From a virus: DNA of 21,394 bases. Below the pieces are notes generated by a model. It ran no database searches. It saw only the letters and a list, made by a program, of their open reading frames with translations, and was not told where the DNA came from. The DNA lies in the IMG/VR virus record IMGVR_UViG_3300025887_000171, positions 1 to 21,394 of that record; one strand, 5' to 3'. Positions 1 through 12,303 of this stretch are shown here, piece by piece; the first letter of the stretch is position 1; each line of letters begins with the position of its first letter. Position numbers and translations under genes: made by a program.

Positions 1-712
1 TGTCCACGTCGGCTCCGGCCCAGCGGTAGATAGCTTGGTCATCGTCGCCCGCGACATACATACGTTTGGATCGTTCATCTAACAGGCTGGCAATATCCCA
101 CTGCATTGGAGAGAGGTCTTGCGCCTCGTCTACAAAACAGAGTTCGAAGTTCGGACAGAAGTTGGAGCCTTCTGTTACAAAATTCTCCAGCATGTCTGTA
201 AAGTCAAATTTGTGCCGGACCTGTTTGTATCGCCCAAGGCAGCTATCGACGTAATTTATCTCGTTCCATGTAAGATGTGTGTTGCTCATGTCGTATTGTT
301 TACGCAGAGGCACTTTTCTAAGACGCGCCAGATTTATTAAACCCAGAATTGGATCAGACGCTTTCATCATGTCCGGCAGATCATCATCAAAATTAACGCT
401 TTTGGTGGTTACGAGATGTACCCCCATGTTTTCCGACAGTTCGCGATAGTCCGACGGCTGCATTACTTGTTCGGGGCTTATGTCTGACAGTGACAAGGCT
501 AGACTGTGGATAGTGCGAAAGAAGTACAGGTCCTTTTTCGAGTCCAGCTTAAACCGTGCAGCGGCGCGTTCTTTAGCTTCTTCTGCGGCTTTTCTGGTGA
601 AGGCTAAGAAAGCAATCTTGGTCGGCTCTACTCCGCTTTGCAGGGCGTCATCAACCTTGTTGAGTAGTGTTGTTGTCTTCCCCGTCCCCGGAGGTCCGAA
701 TATCCGATACAT
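1..712 (-). CDS. UvrD/Rep-family (SF1) DNA helicase, C-terminal part beyond the window
   Basis: Superfamily 1 ATP-dependent DNA helicase, presumably acting in phage replication or recombination. The first 237 codons are open and run off the left edge. Visible motifs: Walker A FGPPGTGKTTTLL (residues 5-17), motif Ia AFLAFTRKAAEEA (34-46), TIHS (67-70), motif II FVDEAQDLSP (193-202) and motif III GDDDQAIYRWAGAD (222-235), all typical of UvrD/Rep/PcrA. The ATG at 710-712 has GGGAGA about 6 nt upstream, so this start is well supported. It lies inside the 3' end of the upstream HTH gene (62-nt overlap in another frame), suggesting translational coupling. The later motifs IV-VI fall outside the window, so completeness of the enzyme cannot be judged. 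The DEAQ box and GDDDQ motif separate it from SF2 enzymes. Confidence 0.9.
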   Translation of the reverse strand, partial: MYRIFGPPGTGKTTTLLNKVDDALQSGVEPTKIAFLAFTRKAAEEAKERAAARFKLDSKKDLYFFRTIHSLALSLSDISPEQVMQPSDYRELSENMGVHLVTTKSVNFDDDLPDMMKASDPILGLINLARLRKVPLRKQYDMSNTHLTWNEINYVDSCLGRYKQVRHKFDFTDMLENFVTEGSNFCPNFELCFVDEAQDLSPMQWDIASLLDERSKRMYVAGDDDQAIYRWAGADVD

Positions 713-857
713 TGTTTGTCTCCCGAGTGTATATCTGATGTACCCGCTGCTTGGTTATCCCAAACCATTTAGCAACAGCGGTCTTGGTCACTTTCTGTTC
801 GTCAATCAGACGGACAATTTCTTTGTTCCGCATTTCTTTTAATACGTTGTCGGTCAA
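651..857 (-). CDS. Small helix-turn-helix protein (68 aa), TTG start
   Basis: A 68-aa protein whose residues about 23-43 (VTKTAVAKWFGITKQRVHQ and following) form a clear helix-turn-helix of the sigma70 region 4/resolvase type. This is followed by a polar S/T/D/N-rich tail. It probably binds DNA, either as a small regulator or as an accessory of replication. The start is a TTG at 855-857, chosen because AGGAG lies about 8 nt upstream and because it overlaps the primase stop codon as TTGA. An internal ATG (codon 9) lacks such a site. The 3' end overlaps the UvrD-like gene by 62 nt. No longer family can be named. The target is unknown; the overlapping divergent promoters near 3.85 kb are one candidate, purely by position. 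Confidence 0.75.
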   Translation of the reverse strand: MTDNVLKEMRNKEIVRLIDEQKVTKTAVAKWFGITKQRVHQIYTRETNNVSDIRTSGDGEDNNTTQQG

Positions 858-2389
858 AACGGACTCTCCTGCGCTTGAAACTGTGGTGTACTTAATTCTA
901 TATCACCGTTTTCAAATGCTGGCACCTTCCATAGGCGCACTACTCGACCTTTTATTTTAAGTAAGCAGCTTTCTCCGGTCACCTCGCGCAGACGCTGGGC
1001 AATCTTGTGGGACTTATATTCAAAAAACTTATTCTTCTTTAAAAACCCTTCAAAGTCCTTGAGCCTAAAGTAAGTATACTGCCCTTCCTCATCCGTCCAC
1101 GGACGGCGAAGTAGTATCTCTTCTCTGTCTTTGGCCTGTTGCATGTGGCTACAGAACTCTTCTAGGAAGTCGTAGAACTGACCACCCACTGAGGCGTCAA
1201 CGGACACTTCTATTATGGCGCTTTGGTTTTCGGTCATTTCACGCATCATAGTACTGATCCGCGCTTCCCACTGTGATCTAGCAACGCTGCGCGGCATAAA
1301 GTTAATTTGCTCCATACAGGCTTTTTGAAACATGCTCTGGTTCATCAAGCCGTCCGTATCTAATTCAACGGGTTCACTGTTTACGTCCATAAACCACACG
1401 GGCGGTGTTGAGTTGTACTTACGCAAGTTTCCAATAGCCGCGTTCTGAGCCCCTGCGCCGATCCCAAACTTCATGGTCTGGCACAGTTCTTTGTTGCAGT
1501 GCGCGTTGATGGGCGCATCAGAACATTTGTAGGAGTAGTCCTTTTTGCCAACTTGCTTTGCAACAACGTTCACTTCTGGCAGCGGCAACGGCGGGTCTAA
1601 AAACTGGGTGTTGTACGTCATTATCTCTGTCTCCCAGCTATCGGGAAACGCTTTGCGTAGATAAATACCTATGTTGTACAGACCGTTGTTTCTTCCGCCT
1701 TCGCTGATCAAAACCTTGGTGAGGTGCTGTAGGCAGGGCGGTCCGTCGGCAAGCGGTCCTTTTACCTGCGCGTCAGTCATCTGAAGTTTGACTATCTCCT
1801 CCGGCGTTTGCACATGCGCCTCGTACAAGCCGAAGAACTCTTCAAGCGTTGCTGATGTGCCGTCATCCAGAATGCCGTATCTCAGGCCGTCCTCTGCGTC
1901 GTAGTAAGGCAGGTTTAGAAAGTTACCTACGTCTCCGCGATCCAAGTGCAGTTTTACTTGTTTTGGAAATATCTCACTACCGCCATATCCGAGGGCCGCG
2001 GACAGGTGTGTCAGGACCTTCTGCATTTCTTTTGCTTCGATCCATTCCTTACAGAACAAAAAGCAGTGTGCGCCGCCGGACTTTGATCGACAGACAACCA
2101 AGGGCAGCTTCATAGCCCGTATTTTTTCTATAAGTACTTTGTGGTCTAGCGGGTACTGGTCAACGTCAATGCAGCCCCACTTGCAGCAATTATCCTCATT
2201 AATCGGGATGATGCCTACAGCGGTGCCTTTGCCGGACAGGTGACCTTTCCAGAGTTTCGAGGTCCGCGGTTCCTTAATGATACTAGCCTTGCCCGTATTT
2301 TTACCGTTGGACTGAGTTTTTTCAACTTTGTACGTGCCGTAAGCCTGTTTCAAACCATCAAAGATGGCGGAAAACTTATCTACTGACAT
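854..2389 (-). CDS. Archaeo-eukaryotic-type primase (TOTE-like AEP) with PriL-like cysteine region
   Basis: Likely replicative primase or primase-polymerase (511 aa). Residues about 50-165 match the AEP domain seen in TOTE-conflict-system primases: metal-binding motif GCIDVDQYP (D75, D77), CRSKSGGAHCFLF (S103, H108), EIFPKQ (139-144) and GNFLNLPYY (155-163). Downstream, PPCL (C219), EGGRNNGLYNIGIYL (230-244) and Y-x-C-x8-C-x4-C (C289, C298, C303) resemble the cysteine arrangement of the PriL/PriCT iron-sulfur region. The last ~100 residues (TYFRLKDFEGFLKK...) look like a winged-helix tail. I chose the ATG at 2389 because AAGGAAGA sits just upstream; an in-frame ATG at 2422 would add 11 residues but has only a weak site. 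Neighbours (SSB-like protein, helicases) agree with a replication role. The AEP call is strong from motifs; priming activity is inferred. Confidence 0.82.
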   Translation of the reverse strand: MSVDKFSAIFDGLKQAYGTYKVEKTQSNGKNTGKASIIKEPRTSKLWKGHLSGKGTAVGIIPINEDNCCKWGCIDVDQYPLDHKVLIEKIRAMKLPLVVCRSKSGGAHCFLFCKEWIEAKEMQKVLTHLSAALGYGGSEIFPKQVKLHLDRGDVGNFLNLPYYDAEDGLRYGILDDGTSATLEEFFGLYEAHVQTPEEIVKLQMTDAQVKGPLADGPPCLQHLTKVLISEGGRNNGLYNIGIYLRKAFPDSWETEIMTYNTQFLDPPLPLPEVNVVAKQVGKKDYSYKCSDAPINAHCNKELCQTMKFGIGAGAQNAAIGNLRKYNSTPPVWFMDVNSEPVELDTDGLMNQSMFQKACMEQINFMPRSVARSQWEARISTMMREMTENQSAIIEVSVDASVGGQFYDFLEEFCSHMQQAKDREEILLRRPWTDEEGQYTYFRLKDFEGFLKKNKFFEYKSHKIAQRLREVTGESCLLKIKGRVVRLWKVPAFENGDIELSTPQFQAQESPF

Positions 2390-2442
2390 GGGGTCTTCCT
2401 TTGGGAAAGCGGGCCGCAGCATCAGCTACGGCCCTTGTGAAA

Positions 2443-3228
2443 CTAGAACGGTACTTCGTCTGGGTTGAAGTCAGGCTTTGACGCCTCTTCACTTTGGTGT
2501 TTCACAACCACGTCCCCTGAAGCGATGCTTGCACGGAACTCACGGGCTCTGTTGTAGATGCCCTTGTCTTCTACGGGGCCAATGCGAGACATGTCCCAAT
2601 TATGCCATTTGCCCTTGCTGTTTTCTTCACTAACGGACTTTAGCAAATATACAGAGCTAAACCGCGGCGGTGTGAAGGGACCGTTCTTGCCGTTCATGGT
2701 GATTGAACTCATCATAGAGTTCCACTTACGGCTTTTCTTGAGGCCCGTGCTTTTCATTGCAATGAGCGCCGTTTCCGCAGAGCCGTCTTCGTTAAGAACA
2801 ATTACGAAGTGTTGGTGCGTTTCTTCGATGTACGAGCCATCACCGCCTACAACCATGTCTTTATTGGTTTCACGGTCACGTTCGAACGGGGGCAGTTTGT
2901 CTGTCGGTTCAAACACCGCGATAGGAGCGCCTGAACCAGCGCCTCTGGGGGCCCACTGGATGAACCTGCGCTGATAGACGCAGGGTATGACCCTAACGCC
3001 GTCTGCGCCTTTGTGGACGGTCTGGGAGACGGTATTGTAGATATCACCCTTCTTTCCCTCAAAGTCAGGGTCATCTAACAGGCTGTCGAGCCCGCTAATC
3101 AGCTTGAGGAACGGCAGCGCCAGATCGTCTTGGCCCATATCCGATACGCCAACTCCGGCGTCCGCTTCAAACATACTTTGGTCAAACTCAACCATTTCTG
3201 TTTTCTCTGTCTTCTTAACTGCACCCAT
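2443..3228 (-). CDS. Conserved phage protein with SSB-like acidic C-terminal tip
   Basis: A 261-aa soluble protein. The N-terminal part has a patch DLALPFLKLISGLD (about 35-48) followed by GDIYNTVSQ and RVIPCVYQRRFIQWAPRG, a pattern I recall from conserved phage replication-block proteins, not from a family I can name with certainty. The C-terminus ends PDFNPDEVPF, closely resembling the acidic tip (DDDIPF) that bacterial and phage single-strand-binding proteins use to recruit partners. Its position next to the primase and helicases supports an ssDNA-binding role, but no OB fold can be demonstrated by eye. The ATG at 3226-3228 overlaps the upstream stop by one base (TAATG) and GGGGAG lies about 8 nt upstream. 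There are 20-53 nt to the primase start, depending on which start is used. Confidence 0.7.
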   Translation of the reverse strand: MGAVKKTEKTEMVEFDQSMFEADAGVGVSDMGQDDLALPFLKLISGLDSLLDDPDFEGKKGDIYNTVSQTVHKGADGVRVIPCVYQRRFIQWAPRGAGSGAPIAVFEPTDKLPPFERDRETNKDMVVGGDGSYIEETHQHFVIVLNEDGSAETALIAMKSTGLKKSRKWNSMMSSITMNGKNGPFTPPRFSSVYLLKSVSEENSKGKWHNWDMSRIGPVEDKGIYNRAREFRASIASGDVVVKHQSEEASKPDFNPDEVPF

Positions 3229-3803
3229 TATTTTGCTCCCCTAATAATGGCTCGTTGCCCAACGTAGGCTCCGAATAGTGTGTGCGGGAAGTCTTCTCCC
3301 GTTTCGATGCGCTCTTTAACAAACGCTTTTAGTGTACTCGCATGAATACTTTCGTTCTGGTCTGCCGGATAACCTTGCTGAGATGCGAACGCGTGAAACG
3401 CACTGGCTTGGTCATCCTCACCTCTGCCAAACTGGCAAGAGATAACGTTCTTTATAATGTCATCAAACCCGTTTTCGCGCAGCCATTCGTATGCTGCCGG
3501 ACGGTCTTTGACGAGGATGCTGGCACCGTAAGTCGGCTTAACTTCTACTGTACTGCCGTCATCCAAAGAGAACTTAGACAGCCCTAAGTCAGCCATAGTC
3601 GAGGGTAGGTCCTCGTCTGTCAGCTTTAGTAGTGCTTGCTTTTCGTCTTTAAGTTCCCGATCAAGCCGTTCAACTTTATCTTGTTGATACTTGATCTTTC
3701 TAGCTAGACCAGCCACAGTGTCTAAACCTGCGTTGTCCAGCGTTTCGACAGAAGAGAGAGTTTTCTCAAAGTCCTCTTCCATCATGCCTAAAATATCGTT
3801 CAT
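3228..3803 (-). CDS. Conserved phage protein with N-terminal coiled coil (191 aa)
   Basis: First gene of the leftward replication block. Residues about 30-62 (KIKYQQDKVERLDRELKDEK and following) are a charged coiled coil. They are followed by DLPSTMADLGLSKFSLDDG, a TVEVKPTYGASI strand region, YEWLRENGFDDIIKN and a C-terminal LKAFVKERIETGEDFPHTLF-AYVGQRA segment. I recognise this combination as a recurrent phage protein but know no established function. Its coiled coil followed by a compact domain is loosely reminiscent of Gam-like nuclease-inhibitor proteins, an analogy only. The start is well supported by AGGAGT 5 nt before the ATG and by a promoter upstream. The stop overlaps the start of the SSB-like gene (TAATG), so the two are almost certainly co-translated. 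Confidence 0.72.
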   Translation of the reverse strand: MNDILGMMEEDFEKTLSSVETLDNAGLDTVAGLARKIKYQQDKVERLDRELKDEKQALLKLTDEDLPSTMADLGLSKFSLDDGSTVEVKPTYGASILVKDRPAAYEWLRENGFDDIIKNVISCQFGRGEDDQASAFHAFASQQGYPADQNESIHASTLKAFVKERIETGEDFPHTLFGAYVGQRAIIRGAK

Positions 3804-3838
3804 CTAGTACTCCTGTTTAAAAGACCCTTTTTACGGCC

Positions 3839-3866
3839 TTGACAAACACCTATATACATATAAGAT
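3839..3866 (+). promoter_or_regulatory. Sigma70-like promoter for the rightward SNF2 helicase gene
   Basis: A perfect -35 box TTGACA (3839-3844) is followed after 16 nt by TAAGAT (3861-3866; 4 of 6 matches to TATAAT). A TATAAG starts two bases earlier. Transcription would begin near 3873, leaving a leader of about 20 nt with AGGAG before the ATG at 3896. The TTG of this -35 box also opens a frame continuous with the helicase, but it has no ribosome binding site, so it is a promoter element and not a start codon. Confidence 0.55.
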
Positions 3867-3879
3867 ATCAGGCAGTCAA
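3851..3879 (-). promoter_or_regulatory. Sigma70-like promoter for the leftward replication block
   Basis: On the minus strand a -35 box TTGACT (3874-3879; 5 of 6 matches to TTGACA) is followed after exactly 17 nt by TATATA (3851-3856; 4 of 6 matches to TATAAT). Transcription would start near 3844, about 40 nt before the ATG of the 191-aa gene, whose AGGAGT site is correctly placed. The element shares DNA with the rightward promoter. Activity is predicted from sequence only. Confidence 0.5.
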
Positions 3880-3895
3880 CCCCGTAGGAGAACAA

Positions 3896-5353
3896 ATGTT
3901 GGAACAGATAGATTACGATTTTAAGACGCAGCCCTTCAACCATCAGCGTGACGCACTAGAAGAGTCTTGGTACAAAACGTACCACGCGTACTTTATGGAA
4001 ATGGGCACTGGTAAATCCAAAGTCGCCATAGATAATATAGGTGTACTATATATAGAAGGTGACCTGAACGCGGCACTAATTGTAGCGCCCAAGGGTGTCT
4101 ACGACAACTGGGTGCAGGGCGAAATACCCGCGCACTTGCCAGACAATATAAAGCGCAAAGTTATGCGGTGGACGCCCGCCACATCCAAACGCTACTCCGA
4201 AGAACTGGATACGTTTATTGATGACCCGTTTGACGGACTAAAACTTTTTGTAATGAACGTTGAAGCGTTCTCGTCGCCCCGAGGCACAAGGGCCGCGGGA
4301 CGTTTTCTGGTAGCCAATCCCGAGAACATGGCTGTTGTTGATGAAAGCACCACGATAAAGAACCGCAACGCCCAGCGCACCAAGAACCTGATGGCGTTAA
4401 ACCCGTACATTAAGTACAGGCGCATTCTGACAGGCTCTCCGATTACAAAGTCCCCGTTGGATTTATATAGCCAGTGCAGGTTCCTTGATCCGAGTTCTTT
4501 GGGCTTTGCCAGCTTCTACGCGTTCCAGAGCCGCTACGCGATTACGCAGAAGCGCGTCATGGGTTCGCGCAGCTTTCAAGAGATAACGGGATACCGTAGG
4601 TTGGACGAACTAAACGAGCGTCTGTTGGGGTTCAGCACCCGCACGTTAAAAGAGGATTGTTTGGATTTACCCGATAAACTGTATATAAAGCGCCGCGTTC
4701 CGTTGACCACGGAGCAAAGCAGGGTGTACGATCAGATGAAGTCATTGGCTTTGGCGCATCTTAACGATGACAATATTGCCACGACAACCAGTGTTCTGAC
4801 ACAGATCATGCGGCTCCAACAGATATGCTGCGGATCGTTTCAGCCTGACGTGGGGGATTTACAGGAACTAAAGAACAACCGTCTGCCAGAATTAATGGAT
4901 ATAACAGACGAGCTTTCGGGGAAGGCTATCATTTGGGCGACGTACACTAACGACCTCCAACGGATAGCACATGCCCTGCGCGACCGTTTCGGGCCCGATT
5001 CGGTCGCAACTTATTACGGTGAGACGCCGCAGGACCGCAGACAGGAGATTGTTGAGGAGTTCCAAGACCCCGACAGCCCGCTGCGGTTCTTTGTGGGACA
5101 GCCCAAGACGGGCGGCTACGGCATTACTCTGACGGCGGCTAACACTGTGATCTACTACAGCAACAGCTACGATCTGGAGATACGCTTACAGAGTGAGGAC
5201 AGGGCCCACCGGATTGGTCAAACTAAAGCGGTGACGTACATTGACCTCGTTTCCCCCGATACCATAGACGAGAAAGTTCTGGACGCTTTGCGGTCCAAGG
5301 TGAACCTAGCTGGCAAGGTACTGGGGGAAGAAGTTAAGGGGTGGTTAAGTTAA
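3896..5353 (+). CDS. SNF2-family (SF2) DNA helicase/translocase
   Basis: The only rightward gene in the window; 485 aa. Superfamily 2 motifs in order: FNHQRDALE (14-22, Q-motif-like), Walker A MEMGTGKSKVA (34-44), Ia LIVAPKGVYDNW (61-72), motif II VVDESTTIKN (147-156, DEST in place of the usual DEAH/DEAQ), motif III ILTGSP (177-182), KAIIWATY (343-350), motif V GGYGITLTAANTVIYY (406-421) and motif VI QSEDRAHRIGQ (432-442). The last two are diagnostic of the SNF2/RapA group. It likely acts in phage DNA replication, remodelling or recombination. I place the start at the ATG at 3896, preceded by GTAGGAG with 5-6 nt spacing. An upstream in-frame TTG at 3839 is part of the predicted -35 box. It has its own promoter and ends tail to tail with the late block. 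Confidence 0.9.
   Translation: MLEQIDYDFKTQPFNHQRDALEESWYKTYHAYFMEMGTGKSKVAIDNIGVLYIEGDLNAALIVAPKGVYDNWVQGEIPAHLPDNIKRKVMRWTPATSKRYSEELDTFIDDPFDGLKLFVMNVEAFSSPRGTRAAGRFLVANPENMAVVDESTTIKNRNAQRTKNLMALNPYIKYRRILTGSPITKSPLDLYSQCRFLDPSSLGFASFYAFQSRYAITQKRVMGSRSFQEITGYRRLDELNERLLGFSTRTLKEDCLDLPDKLYIKRRVPLTTEQSRVYDQMKSLALAHLNDDNIATTTSVLTQIMRLQQICCGSFQPDVGDLQELKNNRLPELMDITDELSGKAIIWATYTNDLQRIAHALRDRFGPDSVATYYGETPQDRRQEIVEEFQDPDSPLRFFVGQPKTGGYGITLTAANTVIYYSNSYDLEIRLQSEDRAHRIGQTKAVTYIDLVSPDTIDEKVLDALRSKVNLAGKVLGEEVKGWLS
5350..5353. other. Shared convergent stop codons (TTAA)
   Basis: The palindrome TTAA gives the TAA stop of the rightward SNF2 gene (5351-5353) and, on the other strand, the TAA stop of the leftward 665-aa gene (5350-5352). 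The two operons therefore meet with a 4-base overlap and no spacer. I see no hairpin plus T-run on either side, so transcripts probably run into each other. Confidence 0.9.
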
Positions 5354-7347
5354 ATATAGATGCCCAAGCCTTTTCCAATATTAGTGTTGGTTCCGGGGTA
5401 TCTTCTAGCGGGCTCTTCCTCGGGCCGATATTGAGGACGTAGGGATCGAAAAACACCACCTTTATCTTCTCCAAACTCCACCTCTGGGGGCCTAAGATTT
5501 GGTTTAATTCTTGGTTTTTTTCCGAGTAAACGTTCAGCCATGTTCGGCGCAGAATATTTTTCCATTAACCCTGAAGGTTGTTGTATCGCGGGTGCGGGCG
5601 TAGGTGGCAAAAGCTCGAAATCGTCCTGTTGAGACTCCGATCCAAAATAAGGTTGAAAGTCTTGACGCAACTGCTCTCCAACACTCTGATCGCTTGCCAT
5701 AACAGTCATATCTCTTTCGGCACGTTTAAAGCTTGGAAGCAACTCGGCTATTCCACTTTGCGCGGGTTCGGGTGTTGTGTAATCCTCTTCGTAGGCGCGT
5801 CTGCGAAGCGCACGTTCTTCTTGCGCTTCTGGAGACATTAAACTTCTAAGAAACTTTGCTACCGTTATGGGATACTTTACAGCCTCTTGATCCAAAGGCT
5901 TTCTGCCTTCAATGAAAGCCTGATAGTTTCCGGTGCCTGCGTTGTACTTTTGAAGCGCAGCTTTTATGTCTCCGTCAGAATGAGAAATCATGGCTTGCAA
6001 ATATTTTTTTCCGAAGGCCATGTTAACCTCGGGGTCGAAGAGTAACTGTCTTGCTTTTTCTACAGTTCTTTCGCCTTCATCCACCGGAAAGCCCATGTCT
6101 ATCGCAATGTCGAACACATTTTCCGCGCCGTAGTTCTCGTATCCGGGTTGAGCCGCTGTACTGGGCAAAATTTGCATTAAACCTATCGCATCGTCAACAC
6201 TAACAGCGTTGGGGTCACCGCCACTCTCTGTTTGAATAACCGCCTCGGTTAGTGTTTCAAAGTCTACTTCGGCGAACGGATCACCACCATTACTCATATA
6301 AACAGGTCCGCCGTCCGCGAACTGTTGGAAAGCGCCAATGCCCTGCGGGTCCGGTCCGCGTGTCGGGGGTGGCCCCATTGCTTCACCGCCGCTGGCGAAC
6401 TGCTGATAAGCGCCAATGCCCCGCGGTCCGCGAGTCATGTTTCGGGCTGTCTCGTTCAGGGTTCCAATACCGCGCATCACGGGACCTCCTTGGGCAAATT
6501 GTTCTCGGGGTTTAACCACAAAGTATTCTTCAGGATTTCGAATACCGCGTTTTTTATTTTGCTCTTCTGCAAATTGTCTAAGAAGGTCTACCGACTCAAA
6601 CAACGGCCTATTTTTTACCGTGTCATCTCCACGAAAGGCTCCTCTAAAGAAAGCTCCCTCCACACGGTCGGCGGGATTTGTTTGTAAATATTCTCTAAAA
6701 GCCGATTGGTTATCTGTTTCTAAAATTCTAAATTGTTCCTCTGGAGTAATTACCCTCATTCCTTGGCGTACAGGTAATCCTCTTTCATCGGCATAAGCCT
6801 TTAACAAGGCTAGTCTTTCCGCCGCAGTGTTTGGCTGTCTTGTTTTGCGATTATAACTAAATGGGGGAACATCTTCCCCCTCTACATAAGGTCCAGTTGG
6901 TTTATTGTAGCTTTCGTGTTTTTCGTAAAACTCTGAAATCATTTCTGCAAAGTTTTTGTTGTACTCGCCGTCCTCTATCATTTGCGGTCTGTCTTGAGCT
7001 TCGATTGCAATTTTTAAATCTAATAGTTGAAAATAAAGTTCATCACCATATTTTTTTCTAAACGCTAAACTGTCTTCAGAAATTTCTTTCAGCAAAATGT
7101 TTATCCCACGTTCACGAAATTCATGAGCGTGTGTCCCTTTGCTTGATAATTGACTCGGTCCGATATTTATTATGTCGCCAACTGGTTGATAGTAGGCGGT
7201 ATCTTGACCTTTTTTAGTGGGGTCCCCAACCCTCACGCGGTTAGGATCAAACCCCGCTCTAGCGATAGGGTCTAAATGATCTAAAAGATCATACTCGTAT
7301 TCTAAATCCCCAAACTGTTCGCTCATTCGGCGGTTTTGGTTAGCCAT
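5350..7347 (-). CDS. Virion-associated protein with SLT lytic transglycosylase domain (665 aa)
   Basis: Last gene of the late block. Residues about 364-505 form a soluble-lytic-transglycosylase domain: LTEAVIQTESGGDPNAVS with catalytic Glu374, AIGLMQILPSTA (387-398) and ALQKYNAGTGN (464-474). It would cut peptidoglycan glycan strands, probably during DNA entry, as the SLT domain of T7 gp16 does. The N-terminal region has INIGP and AHEFRERG (74-81), which look like a decayed HExxH metallopeptidase site. Residues 283-351 hold three QFAxGG motifs, two of them within GIGA(Y/F)QQFA(S/D)GG repeats. The tail after 510 is charged and Pro-rich. The ATG at 7347 has AGGAT about 9 nt upstream. An internal ATG (codon 291) has a much better ribosome site and would yield the SLT part alone. 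Confidence 0.85.
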   Translation of the reverse strand: MANQNRRMSEQFGDLEYEYDLLDHLDPIARAGFDPNRVRVGDPTKKGQDTAYYQPVGDIINIGPSQLSSKGTHAHEFRERGINILLKEISEDSLAFRKKYGDELYFQLLDLKIAIEAQDRPQMIEDGEYNKNFAEMISEFYEKHESYNKPTGPYVEGEDVPPFSYNRKTRQPNTAAERLALLKAYADERGLPVRQGMRVITPEEQFRILETDNQSAFREYLQTNPADRVEGAFFRGAFRGDDTVKNRPLFESVDLLRQFAEEQNKKRGIRNPEEYFVVKPREQFAQGGPVMRGIGTLNETARNMTRGPRGIGAYQQFASGGEAMGPPPTRGPDPQGIGAFQQFADGGPVYMSNGGDPFAEVDFETLTEAVIQTESGGDPNAVSVDDAIGLMQILPSTAAQPGYENYGAENVFDIAIDMGFPVDEGERTVEKARQLLFDPEVNMAFGKKYLQAMISHSDGDIKAALQKYNAGTGNYQAFIEGRKPLDQEAVKYPITVAKFLRSLMSPEAQEERALRRRAYEEDYTTPEPAQSGIAELLPSFKRAERDMTVMASDQSVGEQLRQDFQPYFGSESQQDDFELLPPTPAPAIQQPSGLMEKYSAPNMAERLLGKKPRIKPNLRPPEVEFGEDKGGVFRSLRPQYRPEEEPARRYPGTNTNIGKGLGIYI
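6317..6426 (-). repeat. 32-bp direct repeat encoding GIGA-QQFA-GG units
   Basis: Two near-identical 32-bp copies (6317-6348 and 6395-6426, offset 78 bp = 26 codons) encode the peptide repeat GIGAYQQFASGG / GIGAFQQFADGG in the SLT protein. A third, more diverged unit (QFAQGGPVMRGIG) lies upstream in the gene near 6460-6500. Mismatches are few. Confidence 0.8.
6475..6491 (-). promoter_or_regulatory. Candidate internal ribosome binding site and start within the SLT gene
   Basis: The codons for QGGPVM read AAGGAGGT (6484-6491), a full-length match to the 3' end of 16S rRNA, followed after 6 nt by an in-frame ATG (6475-6477). Initiation here would make a 375-residue protein holding the SLT domain without the N-terminal part. 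The match may also be a by-product of the GG peptide motif (GGA GGT codons). Confidence 0.4.
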
Positions 7348-7357
7348 AGCCTAAATC

Positions 7358-7963
7358 CTACGCGTAAGGGTTCTGGTACATGCCCAACAGTTCTTGGAAC
7401 GTGTAGGCTTTGTTCGCGGGCCGCTGTCCAATAGGCATAACGGGAGGACGCGCTATAACGTCAGAAGGGTTTGTTACGCTTGTCGTGGTCTGTTCATCCG
7501 TGTTCATCGGCACCATAGGCTGACCAGAACTAATAGGGTCCAAGGTCGGCGGCGCGACGTTCACGGGCGCGGGCGCTTGGTACATGGGTTGCACGAATTG
7601 AACGGGTTGCGGCTTGTCGTCTTCTTTGTACAAAGCATCGTACTCCGCGGCTTTTGCTTGCCTGTCTAAGTTAGCTTGATGCCGTTGCTCGTAAGGTGTT
7701 GGATAGTCGTCCATAAAGCCGTCGTTTCTCTTGTCGGGGTCTTCTTTCATCCCCGTCCCTATGGCAAAGTCGTTAGCCATACTGGAAAAGAAGTCACCTA
7801 TGGCACCAAACTCAGGGACGCCGCCGTGGCTCGGGAGCCCCGATCCGCCGTTCTGTTTCAAAAGCATGGCTTCCGCGGGCGTAATGTAGGCCAGCATGTG
7901 CGGCTGATCGCGGATCATGGTCTGTCGGGGTATGGACGCTATGCCCTGTTGCATTCTGTTCAT
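7358..7963 (-). CDS. Late-block protein with LxxxE/GVPEF module (201 aa)
   Basis: I do not recognise a named family. The N-terminal region has HMLAYITPAEAMLLKQNGG (22-40) then a GVPEFGAIGDFF segment (48-59), a module I remember from many marine phage virion proteins. It resembles the module in the 478-aa protein of this window. The remainder is Pro/Gln-rich and probably disordered (PQPVQFVQPMYQAPAPVNV), ending in a short hydrophobic AYTFQELLGMYQNPYA. The ATG at 7961-7963 overlaps the stop of the 1447-aa gene (ATGA), and a perfect AGGAGG sits 8-9 nt upstream inside the last codons of that gene. Location between the giant internal protein and the SLT protein suggests a structural or ejection-related role. 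Confidence 0.72.
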   Translation of the reverse strand: MNRMQQGIASIPRQTMIRDQPHMLAYITPAEAMLLKQNGGSGLPSHGGVPEFGAIGDFFSSMANDFAIGTGMKEDPDKRNDGFMDDYPTPYEQRHQANLDRQAKAAEYDALYKEDDKPQPVQFVQPMYQAPAPVNVAPPTLDPISSGQPMVPMNTDEQTTTSVTNPSDVIARPPVMPIGQRPANKAYTFQELLGMYQNPYA

Positions 7964-10900
7964 CGGAATAATCCTCCTATGCCTGATCGCATCTCGCCGC
8001 CACGGGCCGCGAAGGTTATGTCGTTAGGGAAAAGCTGTCGCGCTTTGTTAATGTCAATGCTACTTATGCCGCCAGACTGCGGTCTTTGTGATCCGCTACC
8101 AGCGGAGTCAACAGAAGCCGTCTGGACTCCGCTGGGCACCGGAGCAGGGGCTGGGAGGACTCCCCTACTCGGTAGTTGTAAGGATGATTGCTCTTCTGGA
8201 ATAGGAAGATTAAGGCTCTCAGTTCCATATTTCGTAGGTTCTTTGTCCACAACGGACTCAGTAGACTCACGAACAATCGCGGGCGCTTGGCGACGAAAGA
8301 AGTTCGCCGTGTTAGTTGTTGCAGGTATAAGACCTTTTTCAACAAAGAGTGTAGCCAAACGCCCTGCAATGTTAAGTTGTTCTCTTTCCGTCCGGCCTCT
8401 TTTTAAAAGCGTTGCCAATAGTTCAGGGTCTTTCATCATGGCCTGCATACTGTCCATCTTCAACTCTTCGGGTATCGCAGAGAAAACCTTGTTGTATGCG
8501 TTTCTAAAGAGCTTAGAACCAGCGCCCCGCGCAATAAGGTCGTTACCCCCACCACCAAGCATTTCAGAAGCGCCTGCACCTAAATTAGAACCTTGAATAC
8601 GCAAATAAAAGTCCATAGCAGGACCAACGTTTTCAGCAACGTCCTGAAGGTTTATATCTCCTGTTGCGGCAAAAGACTCCATTTTTACCATTTCCGCCAT
8701 AAAACGTCGCATACGTTCAATGTCGGCTTTAGGCATAACACCGTTTTCCTCCATCCATTCTGCAACAGTAATCTTGTTTTGAGAGTTTGGAATAGGAGAA
8801 AACAGGTCGTCGAAAGCCGCCCGAGGACTGAACGTCAAGGATGTTTGTCCATTTTTCGTAAAAATGGACTCTAACAACGAACTTCTAAAACCCTCTATTG
8901 CATCAGCTTTGGTGTGATTAACGCCGTCAGGAGTAGTCCAATTTTCTGGGGCATCTTTCACCACTTTCCAAAGAGGGTTTAAGCCTTTTACGATAGGGTT
9001 TTTGTTGTTACGAGCCAGTGCCTTTGAAAACGCTGTAGTGGGGTTTTCTGTAACGGATGGCAATAAATCCATAAACGAGCTTTGTTTTTTAACCTCCGCT
9101 CGGCGTTCTTTCATAGCAGCATTTTGTTCGTTTAAAACAACATTTGCAGAGGCGCTGTTTTCTAAATCCGCTTTTAACGCAGGCATAGCGTTCAGAACAT
9201 CTACATTTTCCGGTTTTGCCATCCACTTTCTAAGTGTGTCAGGATTAACCTCTCCCGTGTCCGGGTTAAACATGTTGGCTGTAGATCGTATGTTTCTTAG
9301 AATGGATTCTACAGTGCCGCGGGTGGTGGTTGTCAAACTTGCAGCGTCTCTAACCCTGTTTAAAACTTCTGGATAAGCCTCAAGAGAACCCGCGTTTTCA
9401 AAAATCCACTGAGACAAAGCTCTCTGATCCAACATCTGATTGTCGGGATTTACTGAAGTTTCTAACATATCATCTAGTAAAGGGCGCAACTCTCCCGAGG
9501 AATCGTTTGCAAGATTTGTCATGGCCTGCGTTATTTCAAATTTGCCAATTCCGTCAATTTGAAGGGACCGCAAATATCCTGCATCAGCGTTAAAAAGGTC
9601 GTTTGCTAACATTTCAGGTGCAATTTTGGCCGCACCTGTTTTGTCCAAACCCAATGCTTCGCCAACAAATGTACGAGTAAAGGCGTCATTAAAAGCTCGG
9701 GAGTAAGCTCTCGCCGTATCGTATGCAGGGTCCACGCCTTCTGGAAAACTTTCTAAATCATCTAACAACGCATCCGCAAACCCGTAAGCTATTCGAGCAG
9801 AATTGCTGTCGCCCGCAGCCGCAAGCTGTCGTCCTAAGTTTATTGCGGTGCTTCGCATATCTACCAATTCTACGACGCTAAGTGTTCCGGCTTCCTCAGA
9901 CCCGTCGGAAGCCGCAGCGCGGGCCGCGGACATTGCAGAGCCACGGGTTTCGGAAGGTTGGCTTTGTCCCTGTAGAGTTAAGTCTCGACTTTGTAGGTAG
10001 CTGTCAACTACATCAGCTAAAGCCGTTTGACCGTCACTTCTTAACTGGTCTATATCCGCTCCGATAATATCTCTGTTTTGGTTAATAACCGGAGTATCAT
10101 TTAACAAAGAATCAATTCTACGGGTGTAATAAGCAACGTCTCTTGCGTCACCGCCCTCGCTTAAAAACGCCTGTTCCGCTTCGTCAAAACGTTGTTGGGC
10201 TCTGTTAAGCGCCTCTTGCGACACTCTTTGCATCGCAGGGGCATCCCCCAACTCGCCCACATTAAGTCGCGTGGCTATAAGTTCTCTTTGACGATCTAAA
10301 GCGTTAGCTAACTGAGTAGATCGTGGGCCTAACCGTCTCCTAGACGCAGCTTGTTGAGCCAACTCTGCCATAGCTGTTTCTGGGTCCATGCCCCTAACTG
10401 AGTCCATGACGGTATTGTATGTGTCTTCAGAGGGCGTTCCTCGTATCTTTAAAAAGGCCGAATCAAAACTTCTTTGCGCTTGTGACGGACCTGTAGCCGC
10501 CGCATCCGCCGCCTCCGCCGCCTCTGGGAACAGGTCGCGCATTTTATCATCATAAAAACCCGCTAAATCTTTCAACGCACGTTTTATTGGGTCCGCCGCT
10601 CGGGAGGTTGTTGGTAACGCTGATTTCCAATAAGCCATAAAGTTAGGCTCATCTATTTCTTGACCGCGAGGGTTTCTAAACGTGATTATTTCGCCATTAC
10701 GGTTGGTTTGTTGCCACAAACGACGTTCATTGTCTCTTCCCAATTTAAAGCGTTGTTCAAAAACTTTTTCAAGGTTTCGACCTAAAACGGCCTGCCTCTC
10801 AGGAGATTCCCCGCCCTTTACACGGTTGAAAGCGTTAAACGTGTTATCAACAGCTTGTTGTATTCCACTGGTAAGGTCGGCTTCAAATATTTGCTCGGCT

Positions 10901-12303
10901 AACTCGGCTCCGTTTCTTAAAGCCTCTTTGTCTCCCGAAGCGTACATAGCCATAACGTAGTTTCTTAAAGCTCTGGTGGCTTGTATATTGGCTGAACCAC
11001 GCTCTTTACCTAATCCCGTAGACAGACGATCAAGAGCTTTTTCTAACGCTAGTATTGTTGGAGAACCCGACTTTAGTGCTGCTGTAAGCTCAATGGGGTC
11101 ACCTGTGTCAGGGTCAAGTAAGATGCCCTCAAATTCTTTAGAAGAAAGCGCCGCTATAACTGCATCGGCATCCTCACCGGAGTCTTCTAAAAGGTCCAGA
11201 ATATAGTTTATATTCTGCCTGCGCATTTCCTTAGTGCCTTTACCTGCAAGCTCCATTGCAGCGTCTTGAGCTTTCCCCTCTTTTCCGTATTTAAGCATAC
11301 TCTTTAAGGCATTTTTCATTGCGGGAATACGTTCAAACAAAACGGCTTTGGTTACTGGAACCGAAAGTCCTCCAGCAAATTCTGCAATGAGCCGAGTTGT
11401 TGTGTCTCCGGGTTTATATGTTTCAGCGCCGTAAGCCCCTAAAGTAGCCCCCGCTCCCGCCGCGACCTCGGCTTTTAAAAACGCGCTGGGAGCTTCTTGA
11501 GCAACCCTGCCCAAACTTCCTACCGTGTTTTCAAGACCACGGGCCATTCTCAAACCGAAGTTTGTTCCCTTTCCTGAAGTAAGGATTTGTTTACCCTTGT
11601 ATCGCCACATGCTTTCAACGGCTTGAACGCCAAAGTTTAATTTTTGTGGGATCATAAAGGGCATGGGCAACCACGCTAATGCTCCAGCGGTTGTTTTACC
11701 TGCTTCGTAAGCTGCGGCAGTCCCCGGAAGCATGGGTTTTTCTTCGCCCGCGATAGCCTCTGTAACTTTCTCGCCCAGAGCATAGGTTGTCATTGCCCCC
11801 AAGGTGCCTGTTATTAAAGGGACTCCAAATCGAAGTGCCGCCGTAGGTAGGGTGACAGGGGGGACACCCGCCACAAGAGTTTGACCCGCAGAAAAACCGC
11901 CCATAAAACCGGGAACAGAGGCCGCTTGAGCGGGAAGTTCCCGCGAAAAACCCTCTAAAAAAGTTCCTGCCTGTATTGGGTTTCCTTCTGTGTCAAAAGC
12001 AAAAAGGCTGACAATCTGTTCGTCTGTTAAGCGCCTGCCTTGAGGAGAAACGTTTTTATAACTAGGGAACAAATTAAATACAGGGGCGGTGCCGTCCTTT
12101 AAACCTTGGTACGTTAAAAACTCAGGGTCTTTATATTGTTCCTGTAAAACAGCGGACATGTTAGCAGCAAACTGAGGGATGTTGCCGTTAAACGATTCCA
12201 TTTGATTATCAAACTCTTCCTTACTAAAAGTAAGGTGCGCCGGAACCACTTTCGCTGCGGGCCCCGCCTGTTTTTCCCCAGAAACTTGTTGTTCTTCCGC
12301 CAT
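7960..12303 (-). CDS. Giant internal virion/ejection-type protein (1447 aa)
   Basis: No family could be named with certainty. The first ~120 residues are polar. Residues about 126-180, 202-220, 275-292 and 304-323 are small-residue-rich hydrophobic stretches (for example LPTAALRFGVPLITGTLGA), the kind found in phage proteins that are injected and insert into membranes. The central and C-terminal ~1000 residues are mostly charged and helical, with few cysteines. The last 17 residues (TFAARGGEM...GIGGLFR) carry the GG motif shared with other late proteins. Size and position beside the 1244-aa protein and an SLT protein recall T7 gp15/gp16, so a role in DNA ejection is inferred. The ATG at 12303 is 12 nt after the preceding stop, with only GGGG as a weak ribosome site. 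The downstream gene starts inside its stop codon. Confidence 0.75.
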   Translation of the reverse strand: MAEEQQVSGEKQAGPAAKVVPAHLTFSKEEFDNQMESFNGNIPQFAANMSAVLQEQYKDPEFLTYQGLKDGTAPVFNLFPSYKNVSPQGRRLTDEQIVSLFAFDTEGNPIQAGTFLEGFSRELPAQAASVPGFMGGFSAGQTLVAGVPPVTLPTAALRFGVPLITGTLGAMTTYALGEKVTEAIAGEEKPMLPGTAAAYEAGKTTAGALAWLPMPFMIPQKLNFGVQAVESMWRYKGKQILTSGKGTNFGLRMARGLENTVGSLGRVAQEAPSAFLKAEVAAGAGATLGAYGAETYKPGDTTTRLIAEFAGGLSVPVTKAVLFERIPAMKNALKSMLKYGKEGKAQDAAMELAGKGTKEMRRQNINYILDLLEDSGEDADAVIAALSSKEFEGILLDPDTGDPIELTAALKSGSPTILALEKALDRLSTGLGKERGSANIQATRALRNYVMAMYASGDKEALRNGAELAEQIFEADLTSGIQQAVDNTFNAFNRVKGGESPERQAVLGRNLEKVFEQRFKLGRDNERRLWQQTNRNGEIITFRNPRGQEIDEPNFMAYWKSALPTTSRAADPIKRALKDLAGFYDDKMRDLFPEAAEAADAAATGPSQAQRSFDSAFLKIRGTPSEDTYNTVMDSVRGMDPETAMAELAQQAASRRRLGPRSTQLANALDRQRELIATRLNVGELGDAPAMQRVSQEALNRAQQRFDEAEQAFLSEGGDARDVAYYTRRIDSLLNDTPVINQNRDIIGADIDQLRSDGQTALADVVDSYLQSRDLTLQGQSQPSETRGSAMSAARAAASDGSEEAGTLSVVELVDMRSTAINLGRQLAAAGDSNSARIAYGFADALLDDLESFPEGVDPAYDTARAYSRAFNDAFTRTFVGEALGLDKTGAAKIAPEMLANDLFNADAGYLRSLQIDGIGKFEITQAMTNLANDSSGELRPLLDDMLETSVNPDNQMLDQRALSQWIFENAGSLEAYPEVLNRVRDAASLTTTTRGTVESILRNIRSTANMFNPDTGEVNPDTLRKWMAKPENVDVLNAMPALKADLENSASANVVLNEQNAAMKERRAEVKKQSSFMDLLPSVTENPTTAFSKALARNNKNPIVKGLNPLWKVVKDAPENWTTPDGVNHTKADAIEGFRSSLLESIFTKNGQTSLTFSPRAAFDDLFSPIPNSQNKITVAEWMEENGVMPKADIERMRRFMAEMVKMESFAATGDINLQDVAENVGPAMDFYLRIQGSNLGAGASEMLGGGGNDLIARGAGSKLFRNAYNKVFSAIPEELKMDSMQAMMKDPELLATLLKRGRTEREQLNIAGRLATLFVEKGLIPATTNTANFFRRQAPAIVRESTESVVDKEPTKYGTESLNLPIPEEQSSLQLPSRGVLPAPAPVPSGVQTASVDSAGSGSQRPQSGGISSIDINKARQLFPNDITFAARGGEMRSGIGGLFR
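7990..8010 (-). repeat. 21-bp sequence encoding AARGGEM, copy 1
   Basis: Encodes AARGGEM near the end of the 1447-aa protein and differs at only two positions from the segment at 17285-17305 in the 478-aa gene. Both differences are synonymous. Confidence 0.8.

Follow-up and report, generated by a model that had tools for sequence, protein, structure and literature searches.

The window analysed here is the whole of a 21,394-bp virus record from a marine phage (IMGVR_UViG_3300025887_000171). On the minus strand, a leftward operon is opened by a Pam3 gp33-like gene (DUF7307, phrog_2378; 3228-3803), with a Pam3 gp34-like gene (2443-3228) and an AEP-type primase gene (854-2422) making up the leftward replication block; a small HTH-like protein gene, also leftward, lies at 651-857, where the Pfam matches are weak and fall under the curated cut-off. 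On the plus strand, the gene of an SNF2-family DNA helicase occupies 3896-5353, with its ATG start at 3896. The gap between the helicase and gp33-like genes is 92 bp and carries a promoter for each direction. Ribosome-binding sites with the sequence AGGAG can be read off in front of both genes, at 3810-3814 on the minus strand for the gp33-like gene and at 3886-3890 on the plus strand for the helicase. No known RNA families or tRNAs were reported in the window. In Pam3, the helicase, gp33, and gp34 genes are all co-directional, so that not every carrier of these genes has the divergent layout.

Both promoters lie within 41 bp, at 3839-3879. The rightward promoter, which aims at the helicase, has the -35 box TTGACA (3839-3844) and the -10 box TAAGAT (3861-3866) at a spacer of 16, with a predicted start around 3873. 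The leftward promoter, which aims at the replication operon, has the -35 box TTGACT (3874-3879 on the minus strand, read from 3879 to 3874) and the -10 box TATATA (3851-3856, read from 3856 to 3851) at a spacer of 17, with a predicted start around 3844. These are sigma70-type promoters, with hexamers near TTGACA and TATAAT and spacers within 16-18, the leftward -10 being weak in the window. An earlier note on this DNA had described overlapping divergent sigma70-type promoters here, and their boxes and spacers can be read directly as it claimed. The core elements are interleaved in their sequence geometry, from which we infer occupancy. The two -10 boxes are separate, with 4 bp between them, and the predicted starts are 29 bp apart, each at or just beside the opposite -35: the leftward transcript is predicted to start in the complement of TTGACA, and the complement of TTGACT adjoins the predicted rightward start. 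From 3844 and 3873, the AGGAG sites follow after 30 and 13 nt, respectively.

The window sequence by itself is moderate evidence for the pair, and the leftward site is marginal. In a consensus scan of positions 1-12000, the rightward site is the sole 10/12 match; the leftward site was not listed because its -10 matches at only 4/6 positions and lacks the T at the sixth position (-7). There were 14 promoter-like sites in the same stretch versus 11.0 in shuffles (sd 2.7), which is not clearly above chance, so that single-sequence scanning could not have settled the matter. With a weight-matrix score, we ranked the rightward site 2nd and the leftward site 23rd among 42,728 window positions; dinucleotide shuffles of the 92-bp intergenic gave P values of 0.0068 for the rightward promoter, 0.060 for the leftward, and 0.0010 for both. 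The pattern TTGAC-N31-GTCAA, which was picked after seeing it, occurs once in the window versus 0.01 expected. The leftward boxes also fit the alphaproteobacterial consensus CTTGAC-N17-CTATAT, as given in PMC2573895, which may not be the consensus of the host; we left the host open because the three genome-contig matches are metagenome bins that span different phyla, with a locus G+C of 34-60%.

Conservation in near relatives

As the near family we took the best 80 of at least 598 helicase relatives, selected by protein and not by motif. In 76 of these 80 loci a gp33-like gene stands divergently beside the helicase; the other four (L074, L075, L080, and L081) lack both gp33 and the facing pair beside the helicase. 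Together with the window, the 76 loci give 77 pairs and 58 distinct gp33-helicase intergenics, and the facing TTGAC / GTC[A/C]A is kept in all 58. Conservation of the boxes in related genomes had been set beforehand by the earlier note as a test that could refute it, and both pairs of boxes came through. The promoter pair is thus established by conservation in relatives, not by a single sequence, and on this conservation we rejected a chance origin of the pair.

The span of the element is 41 bp in 52 of the 58 intergenics, 40 bp in five, and 39 bp in one. Among the 43 distinct 41-bp cores, TTGACA is invariant and GTCAA is present in 42; the sixth box base is always A in the right-reading box and T (0.60) or A (0.40) in the leftward one. 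Of the 6 intergenics whose core is 40 or 39 bp long, 4 have TTGACT as the left box, and in the 40-bp cores the spacer is 17 in both directions. The same 43 cores carry a rightward -10 signature, T-A-n-n-n-T, at a spacer of 18 (0.93/0.84/0.84), their commonest position, and the rightward -10 of the window is 2 bp closer (spacer 16 vs 18). The leftward -10 region, core columns 13-18, is conserved in them too. When the interiors of near cores were shuffled (n=48), none of 500 shuffles reached the native mean -10 scores in either direction.

The boxes have been retained at near-saturated divergence. Across 1,326 pairs drawn from the 52 intergenics of span 41, box identity is 0.988-1.000. In the 447 pairs with 60-72% helicase identity, fourfold-degenerate sites are identical at 0.32 and the two boxes at 1.00 and 0.99; fourfold identity is 0.35 in the 756 pairs at 72-85% helicase identity and 0.54 in the 123 closer pairs. 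In seven loci (L008, L013, L026, L032, L049, L057, and L067) the best-scoring partner is another hexamer, not the facing box. Of 13 hand-picked long relative records, 12 contain a single TTGAC-N30-32-GTCAA; the remaining one contains two, the second of which looks unrelated. The near-family gaps, extrapolated from protein matches, are 75 to 155 bp long. Three loci (L018, L022, and L025) have a gap of about 151-155 bp with an apparent short extra ATG-started stretch between promoter and helicase.

Distant relatives and the leftward leader

The distant set comprises 118 loci from searches with the L291 and L290 helicases, plus L289-L291 and DSL-LC04, for a total of 122; a divergent gp33-like gene is present in 109 of them. 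Seven near-family-like upstreams (L289, L374, L375, L376, L377, L379, and L408), all of which carry the 41-bp pair, were left out before the distant counts. When the left box was allowed to be TTGAC, TTGTC, TGGAC, or TAGAC, with GTCAA as the right box and a span of 28-46, 71 distinct distant upstreams have a facing pair and 17 do not; among the 17, several show facing boxes in degenerate form, are cut, or have no gp33. There is no convincing facing pair in DSL-LC04 (L082) or L333, and the repeat is absent from the record ends examined for HTVC023P and HTVC027P; phage 023Pt_psg01 carries it with a span of 37. According to PMC12753301, HTVC027P encodes no RNA polymerase and depends on the enzyme of its host, a point in favor of promoters of the host type even though the repeat is missing from this relative itself.

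The geometry is more varied in these relatives. Among 49 distinct distant cores, the spans are 33 (11 cores), 34 (6), 37 (8), 38 (1), 39 (8), 40 (2), 41 (11), and 45 (2). In near and distant cores the -10 was sought at spacers 16-18 only; -10-like hexamers are present in both directions in most distant cores, and the -10 is weak in one direction in L385, L386, L389, L397, L398, L290, and L371. Distant cores shorter than 36 bp (17/49) were excluded from the interior-shuffle test; for the 32 of at least 36 bp, 0/500 shuffles came up to the native mean -10 score, rightward or leftward. Starts were also predicted by weight matrix without assuming the facing boxes, in 136 distinct regions, a set in which only six upstreams lacking gp33 were retained and no piece is shorter than 70 nt: the best rightward and leftward starts fall 15-38 bp apart in 130 of the 136, versus a fraction of 0.329 in dinucleotide shuffles, and 28-38 bp apart in 116. 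On a quick helicase tree (111 rows, 9 labels), the span label changes at least 23 times; contigs that are cut account for some of the 'none' labels, and two of the long branches are uncertain. At the same gene pair, L290, L371, and L372 are predicted to use a single -10 (TATCAT/TATGAT) for both directions, which would put the starts 18 bp apart, as in the canonical bidirectional form. Six of seven pelagiphage-type loci (L309, L312, L332, L335, L347, and L354; L337 differs) have a left frame of 119-131 aa with its ATG exactly 6 nt past the leftward -10, TATGAT, an arrangement that suggests a leaderless leftward mRNA in these six.

In the window, the leftward leader carries a hairpin at its predicted 5' end, AAGGCC-loop-GGTCTT (3821-3840, minus strand; RNAfold -7.3 kcal/mol). 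A transcript from 3844 is predicted to begin with (U)GUC, followed by the AAGGCC-loop-GGUCUU fold (3840-3821). Across 53 of 54 leaders, L050 being left out, the hairpin shows compensatory changes and G-U pairs: pair 4 is G-C in 20, G-U in 20, A-U in 11, C-G in one, and unpaired in one. Of the 30 distinct hairpins, 29 pair, versus 24.5 in shuffles, with 10/10,000 shuffles as high. The G-U pairs are as expected for RNA from the leftward strand and independently point to leftward transcription from the 3839-3879 region. For distant leaders, the set excluded the seven near-family-like upstreams, L082, L300, and upstreams of more than 210 nt (pelagiphage type); most of its 37 members have a hairpin near the same place with other stems (such as AAGTTTG/CAAACTT and AGGAATG/CATTCCT), and in L293, L296, L297, L368, and L389 the best-scoring hairpin lies elsewhere.

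The leader hairpin likely protects the 5' end of the leftward mRNA or regulates this mRNA, and it could also be an attenuation hairpin. Reference titles in PMC3997798 tell of 5'-terminal stem-loops that stabilize mRNA in E. coli, papA among them. Like these, the hairpin here would lie a few nt from the 5' end predicted for the leftward transcript. A reading as an intrinsic terminator is not favored: few T residues follow the stem and a terminator scan did not list it. In the leftward leaders of L027-L033, short CGAACCACGAACCRCGAA-like units are repeated in tandem after the hairpin and before the start codon of the gp33-like gene.

Alternative readings of the boxes

Facing boxes of this kind also occur away from the gp33-helicase family. 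In a wider scan for CTTGACA-N-TGTCAAG in samples of viral contigs, the forms with N28/29 (spans 42 and 43) are commonest among spans 40-48, with at least 51 distinct matches. Among 51 listed matches, 10 belong to the gp33-helicase family and include all six with a -10 both ways; in the remaining 41, a -10 is present in one direction in 21 matches and never in both. Away from the family, then, the facing boxes resemble one-way promoters whose start site carries TGTCAAG. Such pairs are seen in L092, L095 (three copies), L110, L124 (two copies), L153, L161, L189, and others. There is an excess at spans 30, 39, and 51 among the matches listed, which may be a coding-frame effect.

The earlier note had proposed the near-palindromic TATATACATATA as a possible operator, a suggestion that comparison with relatives does not support. 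This sequence, at 3851-3862, spans the leftward -10 and the beginning of the rightward -10. The core arms match at 2.93 of 12 positions in native cores and at 3.16 in shuffled ones, with 4,623 of 5,000 shuffles as high. Because the arms do not covary and the span is not fixed, we rejected an operator palindrome as the main explanation. In arrangements of the tetA/tetR type, divergent genes with interleaved core promoters are accompanied by a repressor gene and by operators in the overlap; the phage element differs in that this operator signature was not found. The arm covariation and fixed span that would mark an operator-controlled switch of the pLS20 or tet type are likewise missing from it. 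A non-symmetric regulator site over the promoters could still be present.

The boxes might themselves be read as something other than two -35 elements. One reading takes the facing TTGAC...GTCAA as half-sites, lying over ordinary promoters, for a repressor that acts as a dimer or by looping; the HTH protein of 651-857 could be one. The inverted 5-bp repeat is indeed kept in the near family, a small HTH gene does sit within the leftward operon (with weak, sub-cut-off Pfam matches), and TGTCAAG recurs at the start sites of promoters with a one-way -10 in other viral contigs. We nevertheless consider half-sites unlikely, given that there is no covariation inside the boxes (2.93 vs 3.16), that the span varies among relatives, mostly between 33 and 41, that the sixth base in 41-bp cores never departs from A on the right-reading side and is A or T on the opposite one, and that the boxes and -10s already account for most of the pattern. 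Another reading accepts the rightward promoter alone and attributes the leftward boxes to chance in AT-rich DNA. The window leaves some room for this, with its P of 0.06 and a leftward -10 without T at -7, but the leftward -35 is conserved where fourfold sites are near saturation, the leftward -10 scores exceed all 500 shuffles, and the leader hairpin covaries on the leftward strand. It is very improbable that the leftward boxes are accidental.

Probable competition for a single DNA segment

We think it probable that the 92-bp gap contains interlaced promoters of the host sigma70 type at which polymerase orientations compete, so that box strengths set the ratio of helicase to replication operon. 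The -35 boxes form the outer edges, each -10 lies inside the spacer of the opposite promoter, and each transcript is predicted to begin where the opposite -35 has its complement or right next to it. Host polymerase with its main sigma factor would bind in one orientation or the other, covering the opposite core elements and start; the two directions would then compete for a single DNA segment, and the relative strengths of the boxes would determine the ratio of initiation. The actual start sites, the use of host RpoD, the competition, and its effect on expression are inferred. That only one polymerase could be held at a time, as the earlier note had argued, follows from the geometry, with the predicted starts 3844 and 3873 by the opposite -35 boxes, and exclusive occupancy would be its consequence.

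Polymerase exclusion has been described for bidirectional promoters in PMC12825309, where five native E. coli bidirectional promoters show little competition unless one direction is strengthened. Because competition is negligible at native strength in E. coli, reciprocal coupling of rates, that is, control of a ratio, would be expected here rather than an either-or choice. Competition in the phage element is plausible because both -35 boxes are near consensus. The interpretation in the earlier note is thus supported in part: the mutually exclusive expression that it had raised as a possibility is not supported, and competition that sets a ratio appears likelier.

It is quite possible, though we lean against it, that both promoters are real and that their overlap is passive, frozen by entanglement and genome compactness without regulatory meaning. 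A single indel cannot separate the promoters without breaking a spacer; every base between the boxes belongs to the spacer or the -10 of at least one promoter, making indels costly, and in pelagiphage-type loci, where the left frame starts right at the box, space is short. In contrast, near-family gaps of 75 to 155 bp offer room for separation, and at least 23 span changes on the helicase tree indicate that the geometry moves while the promoters mostly do not drift apart; the clade of L290, L371, and L372 is predicted to have a common -10 and starts 18 bp apart.

How, then, does an element with competing orientations relate to known systems? Bacterial bidirectional promoters (Warman, Grainger), as covered in PMC12825309 and PMC10268837, have a common -10 and starts that are usually 18, or 10 or 23, bp apart. 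The likeness lies in divergent starts from one short pseudo-symmetric element, to which polymerase binds in only one orientation at a time. The window differs in having separate -10s and starts predicted 29 bp apart, a distance outside this series, and it is in the -35 boxes that its symmetry is best conserved; a shared -10 is predicted in relatives such as L290. Judged by its sequence, the window element would work like a bidirectional promoter, yet it is outside the definition by a shared -10. In pLS20, the divergent core promoters Pc and Pr overlap, as in the phage, and polymerase itself can serve as the switch, according to PMC4207663. pLS20 differs in having a dedicated regulator, operators over the promoters, DNA looping, and strongly unequal strengths; the phage element resembles it without such a regulator. 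Among the open-access papers listed in our literature searches, we found no description of the same architecture in phages, and the word 'promoter' is absent from the main text of PMC12753301 and PMC9599517.

More tentatively, and with rather more doubt than conviction, we suggest that facing -35 boxes doubling as initially transcribed sequence represent a distinct, selected architecture in which the orientation of polymerase would control the ratio of helicase to replication functions without a regulator. Under this broader proposal, the geometry would move between interlaced (28-38 bp) and shared -10 (18 bp) forms within one broad marine lineage. The element would be a natural test bed for a question raised for bidirectional promoters, whether competition between opposite polymerase directions has been selected as a means of regulation: its -35 boxes both lie close to consensus, and the arrangement is maintained where divergence is nearly saturated. 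The natural span variants (33, 34, 37, 39, 40, and 41 bp), together with the clade with a predicted shared -10, should make the effect of geometry on the choice of direction measurable. A further addition is the covarying hairpin on the replication mRNA of a group of marine phages, placed at the 5' end predicted for it.

One further position within the core is conserved. At core column 21 (3859 in the window), 0.86 of the 43 distinct cores have C and the window has T. This C, which falls between the -10 boxes, corresponds to no standard promoter element; it could be a contact of another protein.
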